A stretch of 36,467 bases of DNA from Muribaculaceae bacterium (GTDB lineage Bacteria; Bacteroidota; Bacteroidia; Bacteroidales; Muribaculaceae). The notes under the pieces are model-generated. The model was not told where the DNA came from. It saw only the letters and a list, made by a program, of their open reading frames with translations, and did not search any database. This document shows positions 811-6,804 of the stretch, piece after piece. How positions within the stretch are numbered: the stretch's first letter is position 1; the number at the start of each line of letters is the position of its first letter. Both the position numbers and the translations under genes were made by a program. The DNA lies in the NCBI GenBank assembly GCA_017451225.1, contig JAFSPZ010000007.1, forward strand, positions 1-36,467. Direction: 5' to 3'.

Positions 811-1605
811 CTACACCGAGACTGTTCCCTTTATCAATGGCCATGGGTCGTAGCCTTCGAGCTTGAAGTCGTCGTAGTCGTAGTCGAAGATGCTCTTCAC
901 CTCGGGGTTGAGAATCATGCGGGGCAGTGGGCGCGGCTCGCGGCTCAGCTGCTCATGCACCTGGTCCATGTGGTTGAGGTAGATGTGGGCGTCGCCAAAG
1001 GTATGCACAAAGTCGCCCGGCTCCAGACCCGTCACGTGAGCCACCATCATGCACAGCAGCGCGTAGCTGGCGATGTTGAACGGCACGCCCAGGAACAGGT
1101 CGGCGCTGCGCTGATACAGCTGCAGACTCAGCTTCCCGTTTGCCACATAGAACTGGAACAGCGAGTGGCACGGCGGCAGCTTCATCGTGGGCACTTCGGC
1201 CACGTTCCATGCGCTCACCATTATGCGGCGCGAGTCGGGGGTGTTCTTTATTTGGTCAATCACCTGGCTAATCTGGTCGATGTGGCCGCCGTTATAGTCA
1301 GGCCACGAGCGCCACTGGCTGCCATACACGGGTCCCAGGTCGCCGTTCTCGTCGGCCCACTCGTTCCAGATGCGCACCCCGTGCTCCTGCAGGTAGCGCA
1401 CATTGGTGTCGCCCTTCAGGAACCACAGCAGTTCGTAGATAATCGACTTCAGGTGAACCTTCTTCGTCGTCAGCAGCGGGAAACCCTTGCTCAAGTCACA
1501 ACGTAGCTGATAGCCAAACACGCTCTTCGTGCCAGTACCAGTGCGGTCATGCTTGATGGTGCCATTGTCCAGCACATGCTGCAATAAGTCGAGATATTGT
1601 TTCAT
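811..1605 (-). CDS. thyA: Thymidylate synthase
   Basis: Converts dUMP and 5,10-methylene-tetrahydrofolate to dTMP and dihydrofolate. The product is 264 residues, the same length as E. coli ThyA, and the catalytic cysteine falls at the same position (C146 in PPCHSLFQF). The following [20 protein letters not shown] stretch is the classic dUMP-binding signature, and the N-terminal loop DRTGTGT supplies Arg21. A Bacteroidota-type promoter lies just upstream on the same strand. The partner folA follows in the same direction, a common pairing because ThyA consumes reduced folate that DHFR must restore. Nothing looks truncated or unusual. Confidence 0.98.
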
Positions 1606-1631: not shown

Positions 1632-1658
1632 CAAAGGTACCAAATTTTTTTCAGACAA
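1632..1658 (-). promoter_or_regulatory. Putative thyA promoter (TAnnTTTG type)
   Basis: Read on the minus strand, TACCTTTG (1639-1632) matches the Bacteroidota -7 element TAnnTTTG and sits 27 bases before the thyA start. A TTG at 1658-1656 lies 16 bases further upstream, slightly shorter than the usual spacing. The call rests on motif match and position only. Confidence 0.65.
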
Positions 1659-1690
1659 TTAAATACAAATTGTTTTTTTCAGACAATTAA
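1645..1690. repeat. 18-bp direct repeat (T7-cagacaattaa)
   Basis: The word of seven T followed by cagacaattaa occurs at 1645-1662 and again at 1673-1690, ten bases apart, upstream of thyA. A shorter relative, ttttcagacaatta, is at 2341-2354. The first copy overlaps the putative -33 region of the thyA promoter. Confidence 0.7.
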
Positions 1691-1705
1691 GGGCAATAAT
1701 TTTTA

Positions 1706-1774
1706 AGACATAAGAACATAAGAACAAATTGGGCTGCGCCTGGTGGGACAATTTTTGAAAAAAAATTTTAGACA
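1706..1774. repeat. About 70-bp dispersed intergenic repeat, copy 1
   Basis: The segment begins agacataagaacataagaac, continues through gggctgcgcctggtgggaca, and ends with a T/A-rich stretch and agaca. It is nearly identical to 1863-1933. No convincing coding potential or transposase is associated with it. Confidence 0.85.
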
Positions 1775-1822
1775 GGAGTGACAGGATTTATCAGGAGCTA
1801 CAAGATTTCTTGTTTTTCTTGT

Positions 1823-2257
1823 TCAGCTCTTGTCTCTTTTCGGGGCTGCGCATGGTGTTTTTAGACATAAGAACATAAGAACAAATTGGGCTGCGCCTGG
1901 TGGGACAGTTTTTGAAAAAAAATTTTTTAGACAAAAGAACATAAGAACAAATGAATTTTTAATTATTAAAGAGATTGCGGTTATGGAATCATTGGAATCA
2001 TTGGAATCATTGGAATCATTTGAATCGCTTGACTCACCTGATTCACTTGATTCACTTGACTCACTTGACTCACTTGACTCACTTGACTCGCTTGACTCAC
2101 CTGACTCACTTGACTCACTTGACTCACTTGATTCACTTGACTCACTTGACTCACCTGACTCGCTTGACTCACTTGACTCGATTGACTCAGCGTTGATTTT
2201 CAGTGGGTTACAAAAAAGGCGTATTTTAGTGACAAAATTGTTGTTTATAGTTTTCAT
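1823..2257 (-). CDS. Questionable Ser/Glu-repeat protein spanning the minisatellite
   Basis: An open frame of 144 codons reads MKTINNNF and a short basic stretch, then about 23 tripeptides of the S-E-S, G-E-S and N-D-S type, then a hydrophobic, Cys-containing tail read through the dispersed repeats. In its favour is a good minus-strand promoter (TATCTTTG, 2299-2292) with a start codon about 35 bases downstream. Against it, the 9-bp array lacks stop codons in most frames, so it is open on both strands, and the C-terminal third is translated intergenic repeat. No known family is recognised. A non-coding transcript is an equal alternative. Confidence 0.25.
   Translation of the reverse strand: MKTINNNFVTKIRLFCNPLKINAESIESSESSESGESSESSESSESSESSESGESSESSESSESSESSESSESGESSDSNDSNDSNDSNDSITAISLIIKNSFVLMFFCLKNFFSKTVPPGAAQFVLMFLCLKTPCAAPKRDKS
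1863..1952. repeat. Dispersed intergenic repeat, copy 2 plus partial copy 3
   Basis: 1863-1933 repeats 1706-1774 almost base for base (one A to G change and a slightly longer A/T run). A third, partial copy (agacaaaagaacataagaac) starts at 1929. A degenerate core, gggctgcgcatggtg, is also present at 1843-1857 between the full copies. The arrangement suggests local duplication of an intergenic element. Confidence 0.85.
1983..2189. repeat. 23-copy 9-bp minisatellite with GANTC in every unit
   Basis: Twenty-three uninterrupted 9-bp units run from 1983 to 2189 with consensus cttgactca. The first five are ttggaatca-like (GAATC), three carry GATTC and fifteen carry GACTC, so all 23 contain GANTC. 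Other variation is C/T at the second base and A/G at the last. On the plus strand the array reads as an (L/P)-(D/E)-S tripeptide repeat from an ATG at 1983. On the minus strand it reads as an S/G-E-S repeat. There are no spacers, so it is not a CRISPR array. Confidence 0.95.
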
Positions 2258-2291
2258 GGTCGTATATATATTTAATGTTCGCGTGCGAGCG

Positions 2292-2322
2292 CAAAGATAG
2301 GGCTTGATGGAATAGCAAACAA
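2292..2322 (-). promoter_or_regulatory. Putative minus-strand promoter facing the minisatellite
   Basis: On the minus strand TATCTTTG (2299-2292) fits TAnnTTTG and is preceded by TTG (2322-2320) with a 20-base spacer. Transcription would enter the open frame starting at 2257 and cross the GANTC array. This is the only well-formed promoter I see pointing into the array. Confidence 0.55.
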
Positions 2323-2468
2323 TATTAAAAAGCCATCTGCTTTTCAGACAATTACAATCTTTTTATGGCATAAATTAAGCTAAATTAAATTTGCCTGGCT
2401 AAGTTTTAGCCCGCAACCGTGCGTCCTTTGCAACATAAAATTACAATATCCCGGATTTCTTTTTTAAA

Positions 2469-2501
2469 TGTAGACAGTAGTCCGTTGCAAGGTTGTCTAC
2501 A
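2469..2501. promoter_or_regulatory. Probable operator: 8-bp perfect inverted repeat upstream of the XRE gene
   Basis: The arms tgtagaca (2469-2476) and tgtctaca (2494-2501) are perfect complements separated by 17 bases. They flank the -33-like TTG of the XRE promoter. The left half reads gacagtagtccg, resembling the GACT-N3-AGTC/tagtccg style of C-protein operators in restriction-modification systems. Position and symmetry suggest autoregulation by the adjacent XRE protein; binding is inferred. Confidence 0.6.
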
Positions 2502-2515
2502 GAGGGGTAATTTTG
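2485..2515 (+). promoter_or_regulatory. Putative promoter of the XRE/helicase operon
   Basis: TAATTTTG (2508-2515) matches the Bacteroidota -7 element and TTG (2485-2487) lies 20 bases upstream, the expected spacing. Transcription would start near 2520, about a dozen bases before the ATG at 2533. The inverted repeat 2469-2501 surrounds the TTG, so a bound repressor would block the promoter. Confidence 0.65.
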
Positions 2516-2532
2516 CTAGCAAAATTAAAGCT

Positions 2533-2739
2533 ATGAACATTAACGAAAGATTTGGTCAACGCATCAAAGAAATAAGGAAGACTAAAGGCTTGTCACAAGA
2601 GAAGTTAGCCAATCTTGCTGAGGTTGACCGCACCTATTTACCAGAAGTTGAGAGAGGGGAAAGAAATATCTCTCTTGTTATAGCCGAGAAGATTGCAAAC
2701 GCTCTGGGAGAGAAACTATCAAAGATGGTCGAAGACTAA
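2533..2739 (+). CDS. XRE-family helix-turn-helix regulator
   Basis: A 68-residue, single-domain DNA-binding protein of the lambda Cro/CI (XRE) fold. The helix-turn-helix covers roughly residues 17-47, with LSQEKLANLAEVDRTYL as the turn region and the characteristic ERGERNISL after it. It is as small as the controller (C) proteins of restriction-modification systems. I start it at the ATG at 2533 rather than at an upstream in-frame codon near 2419. The extra N-terminus would be translated operator and promoter DNA, and the predicted -7 box at 2508-2515 leaves only a short leader. The helicase-nuclease gene begins 16 bases after its stop, so the two are very likely one operon. Inferred role: control of that operon through the inverted repeat at 2469-2501. 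No DNA methyltransferase is nearby, so it is not a standard restriction-modification controller. Confidence 0.9.
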   Translation: MNINERFGQRIKEIRKTKGLSQEKLANLAEVDRTYLPEVERGERNISLVIAEKIANALGEKLSKMVED

Positions 2740-2755
2740 TAATTTGATTTATAAT

Positions 2756-4852
2756 ATGAGTCGGTATTTCTATAAGTCAGACATATCATCTTTTGTTAAC
2801 AATGATGTAGATAGAATATTTGGTATTATATCTAGAGGAGACGAAGGTGATAGTGTAAGTGAACAAAAATACGCATGGAGTGAAGAGATAGAAATAATGC
2901 AAAAGGTTTTACAGCCATGGAAAGACGAAAATGGCGAAATCATTTTTGAATATTCTATCCCAAGGCTTGGCAAGCGCATTGATGTGGTTCTTCTTTTGCG
3001 TGGTATTATTTTTGTTCTAGAGTTTAAGGCAGGCCAACAAAATTATTTGCAAAGCGATATGGAGCAGGTTATGGATTACGCTCTTGATCTTAAGAATTTT
3101 CATTTGGAAAGCCATAATAAGACAATAGTTCCATTATTAGTTGCAACTGAGGCGCAGATTAGTACAAGTAAATTGTTCTTTTCAATTTATAATGATAATA
3201 TTTATAATCCCCTTCTTTCAAATGCTGACAGCTTAAATAATTTAATTCAGCTAGTTTTTGACAAAGAAATTAATAATATTCATCGTTATGATGATATGTC
3301 TGGGTGGGCTAATGGTAGATATTCACCAACTCCTACAATTATTGAGGCTGCCAGTGCATTATATCAAAGTCATTCAGTTGAAGATATCACACGACATGAA
3401 GCTGCAGGAGAAGCATTAGATAATACAACAGAATTTGTATTAAATATAATAAAAAAAAGTAAGGAAAATGGCGATAAAAGTATTTGCTTTGTGACCGGGG
3501 TTCCTGGTGCAGGTAAAACGCTTGTTGGTTTGAATGTAGCAATACAGCAGTCACTAAAAGAGGAGGATAAGCCAGAAGAAGAAAGAAACTTAGCAGTTTA
3601 CTTATCAGGGAATGGCCCATTAGTTAAAGTGCTGACAGAGGCTTTAGCAAAAGATAAAGTGTTAAAAGACAAGGCAAAAGGCTTAAATAGTAAAATTTCA
3701 GATGCAAGACGTGAGGTTTCCCAATTCATACAAATTATTCATCGCTATAGGGCGAATATGTTGGCAAAAATAAAAACTCCAATTGAGAATGGGACTCTTG
3801 AAATAGATGAGACAAAATCAAAGTCTGACAAATTATCTGGTCATGGAGAAGTTGAACATGTGGCAATATTTGATGAAGCCCAGAGAACGTGGGATTTAGA
3901 ACATTTGTCAAATTGGCTAGCCCGTGGAGGAAGTCGAGGTGGAATGAAAAAAGTGCATAATTTCCCTATGTCCGAGGCTGAATTTTTAATTTGGTCGATG
4001 GATTTGAGAAAAGATTGGGCTGTTATCGTCTGTCTTGTGGGTGGCGGTCAAGAAATAAATTCAGGAGAGGCTGGTATTTCAGAGTGGATACGTGCCATTA
4101 ATGAAACATTCCCTGACTGGAAAGTCTATATTTCGGAGCATCTGACAGATAAAGAGTATGCTGAAGGGAAAGTTATGGAATTAATTAAGGACAATCAAAA
4201 CGTACAAATGGTTGACCAACTGCATCTCGCTGTATCAATGCGTTCATTTAGAGCAGAGAGTTTGTCTGCTTTTGTTCATAATGTATTAGAACGAGATATA
4301 TTGAATGCTCGTGAGAAATATAATAGTTTCAAAGAAAAATATCCTGTTAAATTAACAAGAAATCTGGATAAAGCAAAGGCATGGTTAAAAGAAAAAGCTA
4401 GAGGTACAGAAAGATATGGTATTGTTGTATCTTCACAAGCTTATCGTTTAAAACCTTTAGCTATCGATGTCCGATTACAACCTGATATAGTTAATTGGTT
4501 TCTAGCTGATAAAAATGATGTCCGTTCATCATTGTTTTTGGAAGATGTTGCTACTGAGTTCGATATTCAAGGATTAGAACTTGATTGGATTTGTCTTGTT
4601 TGGGATGGGGATTTCAGGTATACTGATGAAGGATGGGATTATAATTCTTTTAAAGGCTCGAAATGGCATAAAATAAGAAAAAAAGAATCTCAGTCATATC
4701 AACTAAATGCCTATCGAGTTCTTATGACACGTGCTCGTCAAGGAATGATCATATGTGTTCCTAATGGTAATATACAAGACCAGACTCGATTGCCTGATTT
4801 TTATGATGGCACATATAATTATTTGAAAGATATTGGAATTGAAGAAATATAA
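2756..4852 (+). CDS. PD-(D/E)XK nuclease-like / Schlafen-group-3 (DUF2075) helicase
   Basis: A 698-residue, two-part protein. Residues about 40-180 resemble a PD-(D/E)XK nuclease core: an acidic helix (WSEEIEIMQ), then D76 in RIDVV and E89-x-K91 in VLEFKAG. From about residue 240 it is a superfamily-1 NTPase of the DUF2075/Schlafen group 3 type (Pfam PF09848): Walker A GVPGAGKT (248-255), Walker B with DEAQR (373-377), a glycine-rich motif VGGGQEINSGEAG (428-440), QGLELD (605-610) and YRVLMTRARQG (653-663), which matches motif VI with its arginines. All core residues seem intact. The start at 2756 is chosen because the upstream extension lies in the end of the XRE gene. It follows that gene by 16 bases. 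The gene is visibly AT-richer than the flanking core genes, which suggests horizontal gain. Inferred role: nucleic-acid translocase plus nuclease, possibly antiphage. No function is proven. Confidence 0.88.
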   Translation: MSRYFYKSDISSFVNNDVDRIFGIISRGDEGDSVSEQKYAWSEEIEIMQKVLQPWKDENGEIIFEYSIPRLGKRIDVVLLLRGIIFVLEFKAGQQNYLQSDMEQVMDYALDLKNFHLESHNKTIVPLLVATEAQISTSKLFFSIYNDNIYNPLLSNADSLNNLIQLVFDKEINNIHRYDDMSGWANGRYSPTPTIIEAASALYQSHSVEDITRHEAAGEALDNTTEFVLNIIKKSKENGDKSICFVTGVPGAGKTLVGLNVAIQQSLKEEDKPEEERNLAVYLSGNGPLVKVLTEALAKDKVLKDKAKGLNSKISDARREVSQFIQIIHRYRANMLAKIKTPIENGTLEIDETKSKSDKLSGHGEVEHVAIFDEAQRTWDLEHLSNWLARGGSRGGMKKVHNFPMSEAEFLIWSMDLRKDWAVIVCLVGGGQEINSGEAGISEWIRAINETFPDWKVYISEHLTDKEYAEGKVMELIKDNQNVQMVDQLHLAVSMRSFRAESLSAFVHNVLERDILNAREKYNSFKEKYPVKLTRNLDKAKAWLKEKARGTERYGIVVSSQAYRLKPLAIDVRLQPDIVNWFLADKNDVRSSLFLEDVATEFDIQGLELDWICLVWDGDFRYTDEGWDYNSFKGSKWHKIRKKESQSYQLNAYRVLMTRARQGMIICVPNGNIQDQTRLPDFYDGTYNYLKDIGIEEI

Positions 4853-5119
4853 TATTTTACTAGTGAAATAGCTCGCGACAGTAATAATTCCTTTTGTTCT
4901 ATTTGATACAAATATCAAATATATAAGGAATTTCATAATAAAGAAAATTGAAATTAATTGTTTTTAATTGTTTGAATAATCCCGAGCTTGCGAGGCTTTT
5001 TGGCACTGCGAGGGGTTGCTTTTTGAAAGATTTGTTTCCACAGCCGCGTGAGCGGCTTTACTTGACATTTTACCCATAACACTTAACCCTTATTTTTTGT
5101 GTTTTTCGTGAAAAAGGAG
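4853..5119. other. Intergenic region after the helicase gene
   Basis: No gene is visible. It holds AT-rich DNA and a 6-bp hairpin (agccgc-gtga-gcggct, 5042-5057) followed by a few T residues, a weak candidate terminator. It ends at the promoter of the RNA methyltransferase gene. No attachment-site-like duplication matching the left side of the accessory region was noticed. Confidence 0.5.
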
Positions 5120-5175: not shown

Positions 5176-6804
5176 ATGAGCGAGACATTTGAAATGGTTG
5201 CTAAGACCTTCCAGGGGCTGGAGGGCGTGTTGAGTGATGAACTGACAGCGCTGGGTGCGCAAGATGTGGTGCAGGGTCGCCGCATGGTGTCGTTCAAGGG
5301 CGACAAGGAGCTGATGTACCGGGCAAACTTCTGCCTTCGCACTGCGTTGCGTGTGCTCAAACCCATCTATAAGTTCACTTCTAGCGATGCCGACGACCTC
5401 TATGAGCAGGTGAAGCAGTTCCACTGGGAGGACATCATGACCGAGAGCAGCACGTTCTCGATTGACACCACCGTGTATAGCGAATCGTTCAAGCACTCGC
5501 GATTTGTCACCTACCGCGTGAAAGACGGCATCGCCGACTACTTCATGGAGCAGTGCGGCAAGCGTCCGTCAATTCGTCTCAACGCTCCCGACTACCAATT
5601 TAACGTTCACATCAATGGCAATGATGTGACCATCTCGCTCGACTCGTCGGGTGAGCCCCTTTACAAGCGCGGCTGGCGCGTGGCACAGACCGAAGCGCCC
5701 ATCAACGAGGTGCTGGCTGCCGGCATCATCAAGCTGAGCGGCTGGGACGGCGAGAGCAACTTCGTCGACCCCATGTGCGGCTCGGGAACGTTCCTGATTG
5801 AGGCAGCATTGATAGCCGCCAACATCAACCCCGGCGTGTACCGCAAGGGATATGCGTTCCAGAAGTGGCCCGACTATGACGCCGACCTCTTTGACGACAT
5901 CTACAACGACGACAGCGGCGAGCGTGAGTTCAACCACAAGATTTATGGCTATGACATTCTGGGCAAGGCAGTTGCAGCCAGCAATGCCAACATCAAGAAT
6001 GCGGGCCTCACACAGTATATCGAGGTGGAGCGCGTGCCGCTCGAGGAGCAGGAATCGGCGCCCGAAAAAGGCGTGCTCATCACCAATCCTCCCTATGGCG
6101 AGCGCCTCACCAGCGACGAGCTGCCACAGCTCTATGCCACCCTGGGCACCAAGCTAAAGAAGGTGTTCCTAGGCTATGACTGCTGGCTGATTGTGGGCAG
6201 CAACAAGGAGCTGATTGACAACCTGGGACTGAAGGCATCGCTGCACTATCCGCTGCTCAACGGTGACATCGAGTGCGAGCTGCGTGAGTATGTGATTTTC
6301 GACGGCAGTTTCGACGACATGCGTCGCAAGGGCGGTTCGATTAAGAATACCGACTTCCGCGCCAGCGACAAGCCCACCTATGAGCGCCGCGAGCGCCATG
6401 GCGACGAGCCTCGCCGTGAGTTCAAGCGTGGCGACCGTCGTGAGGGCGACCGCCGTGGTGACCGCCGCAGCGACGACCGTCGCGACCGTGGCCATGGCCG
6501 CGACTTCAAGCGTGAGGGCGACCGCGGAGTGAATCCGGCTCGACGTCGCCGTGAAGACGGCGACCGTGGCGTGAACCCCATGCGCAAGCGCGAGGACGGC
6601 ACCCGTGTGTACCGCACCGACCGCCCCTATGGTGAGGGCGACCGCGAGGGCGAAGGACGTCGCGACATGAAGCGCCGCCGCACGTTCACCTTCCACGGCC
6701 CACAGCTGGGCGAGGATAAGGAGCGCCCCATCTTCAAGGGTCGCCGCAACGGCTGGAAACGCCGCGACGCAGTGGCCGGCGACGGCAGCGAGGAGAAGGA
6801 GTAG
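5176..6804 (+). CDS. rlmL: THUMP-domain SAM-dependent RNA methyltransferase (RlmL/YpsC-like)
   Basis: Methylates a base in structured RNA, by family most likely 23S rRNA guanine N2. The N-terminal part, about residues 1-165, is a THUMP-type RNA-binding region (FQGLEGVLSDEL at its start). The catalytic domain has the SAM motif DPMCGSGTF (198-206) and the active-site NPPYGERL (304-311). The start at 5176 is set by the promoter just upstream. Residues from about 394 to 542 form a highly charged tail rich in Arg, Asp, Gly and Glu, including the near-duplicate pieces DRGVNPARRRRED and DRGVNPMRKRED. Such a tail is absent from typical members, which end soon after the catalytic domain. It probably adds non-specific RNA or ribosome contact. 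Lacking the second methyltransferase of E. coli RlmKL, it resembles B. subtilis YpsC in layout; the exact target base is uncertain. Confidence 0.88.
   Translation: MSETFEMVAKTFQGLEGVLSDELTALGAQDVVQGRRMVSFKGDKELMYRANFCLRTALRVLKPIYKFTSSDADDLYEQVKQFHWEDIMTESSTFSIDTTVYSESFKHSRFVTYRVKDGIADYFMEQCGKRPSIRLNAPDYQFNVHINGNDVTISLDSSGEPLYKRGWRVAQTEAPINEVLAAGIIKLSGWDGESNFVDPMCGSGTFLIEAALIAANINPGVYRKGYAFQKWPDYDADLFDDIYNDDSGEREFNHKIYGYDILGKAVAASNANIKNAGLTQYIEVERVPLEEQESAPEKGVLITNPPYGERLTSDELPQLYATLGTKLKKVFLGYDCWLIVGSNKELIDNLGLKASLHYPLLNGDIECELREYVIFDGSFDDMRRKGGSIKNTDFRASDKPTYERRERHGDEPRREFKRGDRREGDRRGDRRSDDRRDRGHGRDFKREGDRGVNPARRRREDGDRGVNPMRKREDGTRVYRTDRPYGEGDREGEGRRDMKRRRTFTFHGPQLGEDKERPIFKGRRNGWKRRDAVAGDGSEEKE

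Follow-up and report, generated by a model that had tools for sequence, protein, structure and literature searches.

A PDC-S41-family nuclease-helicase gene behind a C-protein-like regulator gene at a variable site of a Muribaculaceae genome

How would a nuclease fused to a helicase, set behind a small regulator and without a methyltransferase, serve its host, and how would the DNA of that host be spared? The question is raised by two adjacent genes in a 36,467-nucleotide stretch of DNA (the window) from a Muribaculaceae bacterium, contig JAFSPZ010000007.1 of assembly GCA_017451225.1, which is one of 70 contigs (our C41) in an assembly of 2.28 Mb. The first gene encodes a 68-residue protein of the XRE type and the second a 698-residue nuclease-helicase. 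An earlier, sequence-only reading had proposed that the two form a regulator-controlled defence module, and its gene calls, protein lengths and 16-base spacing (XRE stop to nuclease-helicase ATG) are confirmed (Table 1). By sequence, the nuclease-helicase is a full-length member of PDC-S41, an unvalidated candidate family. We consider it likely that the locus is a horizontally moving, restriction-type defence cassette, namely an end-processing and possibly modification-dependent nuclease-helicase that is dosed here by a controller (C) protein.

The nuclease-helicase and its probable regulator

The 698-residue protein matches the PADLOC model PDC-S41 with an E-value of 5e-266 over model positions 1-653 of 657, and this full-length match places it in a family previously proposed as defence. 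According to PMC12988326, 'guilt by embedding' is the origin of the PDC families, the majority of which are unvalidated. The proposal of a candidate defence module is partly supported; the module is not new in itself, the large gene belonging to a family already listed. Besides the superfamily 1 (SF1) motor, PF09848, no Pfam match above cut-off was found in the protein, and the mREase_IV model of PADLOC gave no match at E<=1. A PDB sequence search with the nuclease-helicase profile returned one weak match, to zeta toxin (E = 0.03), over the Walker region.

The N-terminal 200 residues are confidently predicted (predicted local distance difference test, pLDDT, 88; predicted template modelling score, pTM, 0.88). 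The predicted fold, an alpha-beta-beta-beta-alpha-beta core with D..ExK, matches the PD-(D/E)XK nucleases Can2, Cdn1 and McrC, so that the model bears out the nuclease suspected earlier from D76 and E89-x-K91. These residues are as had been stated; together with E65, Q104 and Y108 they are conserved without exception across the 84 aligned sequences, which include the window protein and range down to 28% in pairwise identity to it. We take the set as a whole to resemble that of RecB/Cas4-type nucleases. Walker K254, D373-E374, R496 and R659 of the motor are likewise invariant in all 84. Over its full length the protein is modelled with low confidence (pLDDT 64, pTM 0.41), and for this reason the matches of that model to SLFN and ORC were set aside as proof; its middle region matches AAA+ and SF1 proteins alike.

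The 68-residue protein carries an HTH_3 domain (PF01381; HTH, helix-turn-helix). Its four PDB matches at E<=1e-6 are C.BclI (5.6e-15), C.AhdI (6.3e-14), a helix-turn-helix protein and the regulatory protein 4fn3, and its sequence is closest to known C proteins. Upstream lies a predicted operator laid out in part as C-protein sites are, which according to PMC3115060 comprise two quasi-palindromic boxes (GACTtatAGTC), a central GT and an outer TG..CA over ~35 bp. The window has the outer TG..CA, a left box of GAC-N4-GTC and the central GT at 2484-2485, with a degenerate right box, and the right arm sits between the -33-like GTTGC and the -7-like TAATTTTG of a putative promoter. This promoter was called from what we take to be the Bacteroidota consensus (-33/-7). 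Since 10% of shuffles of the operator stretch would be expected to contain a perfect 8-bp inverted repeat, shape alone is weak evidence; it is the layout and position that make the predicted operator meaningful. A 15-base footprint pattern, drawn up after the loci had been viewed, was found twice with two mismatches permitted, against 1.86 expected, which is no rarer than chance; its exact match is single. The loci L175 and L176 come from a different family within the class; the XREs directly upstream there are 56-57% identical to that of the window, and a similar GACnnTACTCCGTTG stretch occurs. The spacing CCGTTG-N12-CA, read by eye, is common to these two loci and the window and is lacking at L017 and L018. 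A MAFFT alignment of the five promoter stretches, some of which were badly placed, did not recover the footprint. The earlier analogy with C-protein-regulated systems is nonetheless correct for the window locus, as judged from the Control_protein match, the C proteins in PDB and the operator layout, and the nuclease-helicase operon here is likely under C-protein control.

Table 1. Positions of the features at and around the nuclease-helicase locus (window coordinates)
Feature	Position	Strand	Basis
Left core flank, thyA	811..1605	-	site comparison and family scan
Segment lacking in two same-genus genomes in which the site is empty	~1645..5100		limits judged by eye
Imperfect 9-bp tandem repeats within the variable segment	1984..2189		sequence
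C-protein-like predicted operator, 33 bp, TGTAGACA-N17-TGTCTACA	2469..2501		sequence; layout in part as in PMC3115060, right box degenerate
Putative Bacteroidota promoter: -33 GTTGC (2484-2488), 20 nt, -7 TAATTTTG (2508-2515)	2484..2515	+	sequence only
Perfect 10+10 bp palindrome across the -7 element, perhaps another binding site	2508..2527		sequence
XRE / putative C protein gene, 68 residues	2533..2739	+	HTH_3 7e-13; PADLOC Control_protein 3e-22; PDB C.BclI, C.AhdI
Nuclease-helicase gene, 698 residues, PADLOC PDC-S41	2756..4852	+	882 bits; invariant catalytic residues
Predicted PD-(D/E)XK nuclease domain, residues 1-173: E65, D76, E89-x-K91, Q104-x3-Y108	2756..3274	+	structure model; fold matches
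SF1 motor, SLFN-g3_helicase, residues 241-669	3476..4762	+	PF09848 E 2e-76, 258 bits
Right core flank, THUMP/UPF0020 methyltransferase	5176..6804	+	site comparison and family scan

A variable site and its neighbourhood

Homologues of the nuclease-helicase (E<=0.001) occur in 45 of the 397 genomes sampled from the family, 22 of the 393 from the order and 23 of the 395 from the phylum; each count includes the genome of the window. Wide regions, apart from the window, were fetched for 30 of the 45, 16 of the 22 (G007 included) and 21 of the 23, the others being mostly partial or split matches. One locus was dropped at the start (L025, 43% over 48 residues) and three before the counts (L066, L068 and L143, copies of L010, L021 and L016), which leaves 90 loci. 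A further six were left out of the tree and residue counts (L022-L024, L164 and L170, partial; L144, too short with an in-frame stop), which leaves 84. Both members of the identical pair L147/L148 and of the near-identical pair L017/L018 were counted. The 22 named relatives belong to the Bacteroidota, and many come from ruminant guts. In a quick gene tree, which crosses host families, the window sequence is nearest to a Muribaculaceae sequence with 78% identity, whereas the homologues of several same-genus genomes fall in a 57% clade and those of others in a 76% clade; the gene thus moves between lineages.

The site is itself variable. The flanking methyltransferase, presumably of the Rlm type, is present in 97 of 101 same-genus genomes. 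Among 20 regions examined upstream of it, four of them shortened by contig ends, thyA was reached in five and not seen in 15. The thyA-methyltransferase interval is empty in two relatives (277 and 298 bp; L207 and L212). One relative has in it a PLD-DEAD-DUF3427 protein (PADLOC mREase_IV, 3.9e-171), another an AAA protein (REase_II, 1e-43) together with a gene whose LlaJI match is just below the Pfam cut-off, and another a Sel1-repeat gene. Genome G040 carries a 57% homologue at the same site without an XRE. In some relatives this variable interval contains genes of restriction type, and a stable core gene, an outcome that the sequence-only reading had named as fatal to its proposal, is rejected by the two empty sites. 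The loci in which interval variation was seen within the genus are L207, L212, L209, L211, L214 and L068.

The GC content is 35%, against 58-60% in the flanking genes, in agreement with the AT-richness described earlier, and only the XRE and nuclease-helicase are recognisable as genes in the variable segment. No recognisable transposon or integrase gene was seen in the segment, and no target duplication was noticed on inspection by eye. Nor does the segment contain a methyltransferase; PADLOC found none among the 27 other open reading frames (ORFs) of the window, a search that did not extend to the remaining contigs of the genome. The repeats that had been noted beside the gene pair are an array of about two dozen imperfect 9-bp copies (TCACTTGAC, TGGAATCAT), open in several frames. 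From 5176 to 35985 the window resembles core genes, including topA-type, mur ligase and ftsA/ftsZ genes and others (25 best of 39 families).

Defence genes next to homologues were sought by scanning the two nearest ORFs per side, chosen by a simple length rule, at 37 of 42 loci (148 ORFs; PADLOC, E<=1e-15), with the plasmid loci L084-L085 and L067 outside the list. Among the 25 best of 180 families, PDC-S07 was matched in eight neighbours and PDC-S02, BrxP, SoFic and Vsr in two each, with single strong matches to MTase_II, REase_II, DrmMII, PDC-S05, PDC-S08, PDC-S68, PDC-S72 and AriAB. As several PADLOC families may match one neighbour protein, no total of defence genes is given. In control regions, 131 ORFs of 17 regions matched 32 families, of which the 25 listed match one ORF each; most of these, among the matches listed, are helicase or regulator models that we take as generic. 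The 17 regions, one per homologue-carrying genome (20 sought, 3 absent), were chosen arbitrarily, not at random, and relative to them the predicted enrichment near defence genes is borne out. Plasmid homologues are similarly placed. That of an Exiguobacterium plasmid adjoins genes annotated as McrC, AAA ATPase, HNH and DNA methyltransferase, and that of a Niallia megaplasmid (29% identical) adjoins McrBC-like and type I restriction-modification-like genes, as judged by eye, with an HNH-NUDIX fusion gene directly upstream of the helicase (L085:6623-7972).

These observations bear on whether the protein could be a DNA-repair or recombination enzyme of the Dna2/AddAB kind, with no special anti-invader role and moving by chance with islands. 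Such an enzyme would be at odds with presence in so few genomes of the family (45 of 397), with a site that alternates with restriction genes, with the defence neighbours relative to the control and with C-protein control, which PMC3115060 gives as typical of restriction genes. We regard this explanation as unlikely.

XRE and NUDIX partners

Among the 84 loci with sufficient upstream sequence, an XRE-domain gene lies directly upstream of the helicase in six. In five of these (the window, L017, L018, L175 and L176) it is a small XRE gene, with three changes on the tree; in the sixth, L150, a 168-residue XRE-domain gene ends 2 bp before the helicase. At L153 a 165-residue XRE-domain gene ends 285 bp before it, and at L077 one HTH-like ORF lies 441 bp upstream. 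With three XRE queries in the scan, HTH genes of other kinds may have escaped it; 165 kb of control DNA yielded no window-type XRE. An obligate XRE-helicase pair is rejected by the count of six in 84, and the two-gene, regulator-controlled system of the earlier proposal is not supported as a general rule, a NUDIX partner being commoner (14 of 87 loci). The longer XRE-domain proteins of L150 and L153 have a conserved C-terminal part. At L017 and L018 the helicase is preceded by a tandem of two different XRE genes and followed by a NUDIX; genes in the surroundings cluster by BLAST, and a Vsr gene is nearby.

The XRE and the large gene might instead constitute a toxin-antitoxin or mobile-element maintenance pair. 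A small HTH gene does precede the nuclease, and the XRE protein has a sub-cut-off match to the antitoxin subfamily TIGR03070. However, 78 of the 84 homologues lack an XRE-domain gene immediately before them, and therefore any obligate antitoxin of the XRE kind, and the XRE itself is nearest to C proteins, which makes such a pair improbable. An enzyme that acts on RNA and aborts infection, like the human Schlafens, is very improbable, as the N-terminal domain is predicted to be PD-(D/E)XK with the usual nuclease residues, Pfam finds no Schlafen core RNase domain, and the best fold matches are nucleases acting on DNA (some on RNA too).

The NUDIX gene lies 3' of the helicase on the same strand, with a gap of -46 to 302 bp and eight changes on the quick tree; the count of 14 refers to the 87 loci with sufficient sequence and includes a remnant at L009. 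The 165 kb of control DNA contained no such gene. The partner is not obligate, as 73 of the 87 loci have no adjoining copy and genome G361 shows none. The NUDIX of L004 matches PDC-S07 (1.4e-46), the same family that recurs in 8 of the 148 scanned neighbours, an assignment made for the scanned copies among the 14. The closest solved relative of the L004 copy is 3GWY (E = 4.7e-24), which is B. fragilis Q5LBB1. This enzyme is reported in PMC5158307 to hydrolyse 5-methyl-dCTP and 5-hydroxymethyl-dCTP, with kcat/Km at 4-5 million per M per s; 5-OH-dCTP is hydrolysed ~50-fold less. In S. suis, PDC-S07 and type IV restriction-modification co-localise in 23 of 23 occurrences (PMC12813430), and PDC-S07 is frequent in rumen genomes, with 1672 occurrences (PMC13356809). 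In our own sample of the same family, DUF3427 genes occur in 5 of 198 genomes, and at three of the five loci (L246, L247 and L249) a NUDIX gene follows ~0-25 bp downstream (gaps by hand). These three copies, which were not compared with the PDC-S07 model, are 33-46% identical to the helicase partner NUDIX. It is because this partner is shared with type IV (DUF3427) loci that modification dependence is proposed for PDC-S41. The NUDIX at related loci suggests that modified cytosine may be sensed, rather than the DNA ends, replication forks or RNA that had earlier been offered as examples of what self/non-self discrimination might rest on.

Proposed action and relation to known systems

We thus favour a restriction-type defence cassette, and the protein is probably a mobile, antiviral nuclease-helicase of a listed candidate family that would act on phage or plasmid DNA. 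From the order of its domains, a RecB/Cas4-like nuclease N-terminal to an SF1 motor, it would probably load on a DNA end, flap or fork, translocate and cut; a similar nuclease-then-motor order is found in Dna2. The C protein would probably bind the 33-bp predicted operator, which overlaps the shared promoter, and would switch its own operon on at first and restrain it later, a timing by which a new host would not be exposed to the nuclease too fast. Self might be spared through recognition of modified (5-substituted cytosine) DNA, the hypothesis that best fits the NUDIX partner at related loci. Extended further, PDC-S41 and PDC-S07, which PADLOC lists separately as single-gene candidates, may constitute one modification-dependent immune system, in which the nuclease-helicase destroys 5-substituted-cytosine DNA and the NUDIX clears 5-methyl- and 5-hydroxymethyl-dCTP, keeping these bases out of host DNA and sparing self by a clean pool with no methyltransferase, and in which the C protein is a further safety device; we offer this as a tentative and rather doubtful proposal.

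Several observations weigh against the defence-cassette reading or limit it. Few loci have an XRE partner (6 of 84), most homologues have neither an XRE nor a NUDIX partner, and many are without a recognised adjoining defence gene, the matches among the 148 neighbours being single or few. The right box of the predicted operator is degenerate. The window locus has no adjoining NUDIX, a 63% identical copy lying on another contig (C34) of the same genome. In one family sample, genome-wide NUDIX-helicase co-occurrence is not above chance: with a close NUDIX in 19 of 198 genomes and 28 helicase genomes among G000-G198 (hand count), both occur in three (G000, G040 and G109), on different contigs, against ~2.7 expected. 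PADLOC returned one match only, to a DpdF model, on the 27 other window ORFs. Finally, in the literature searched we found no functional test of PDC-S41 and no paper naming it.

These findings connect two unvalidated candidate families with one another and with type IV restriction, and offer a biochemical handle in a nucleotide-pool enzyme whose closest solved relative has measured activity against modified dCTP of the phage type. A nuclease that comes without a methyltransferase needs some way of sparing self, and pool cleaning, if true, would be a distinct answer; C-protein control is also suggested beyond classical restriction-modification (R-M) systems. No prior report linking PDC-S41 to C proteins, PDC-S07 or type IV restriction was found in the literature searched, the NUDIX/type IV part of which was surveyed incompletely.

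Among known systems, the Schlafen proteins share the group 3 helicase domain (PF09848) with the window protein, without the Schlafen core RNase domain being found in it, and no sequence similarity was detected to the solved structures of Dna2, AddAB, RecB and SLFN11/14. The C-regulated type II R-M systems of C.BclI and C.AhdI are alike in the XRE sequence, much of the operator layout and a regulator directly before the nuclease gene; they differ in that the window segment has no methyltransferase, its nuclease is a helicase fusion and its right operator box is degenerate. Type IV restriction (McrBC, PLD-DEAD-DUF3427) is alike in having no methyltransferase, a similar NUDIX partner and, in McrC, a similar nuclease fold, and a DUF3427 enzyme occupies the same site in one relative; it differs in its motor, and neither Pfam nor PADLOC found a type IV model or a known reader of modified bases in the window protein. 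The L004 partner is of the same kind as PDC-S07 NUDIX, Q5LBB1 (3GWY) and E. coli NudG (2RRK), whereas the window's own gene has no adjoining copy. To PDC-S41 itself the match is full-length, but PADLOC lists this family alone, whereas the window has probable C-protein control and related loci a NUDIX partner. The system is not categorically new; what is new, as far as the literature searched shows, are its links to C proteins, PDC-S07 and type IV restriction.
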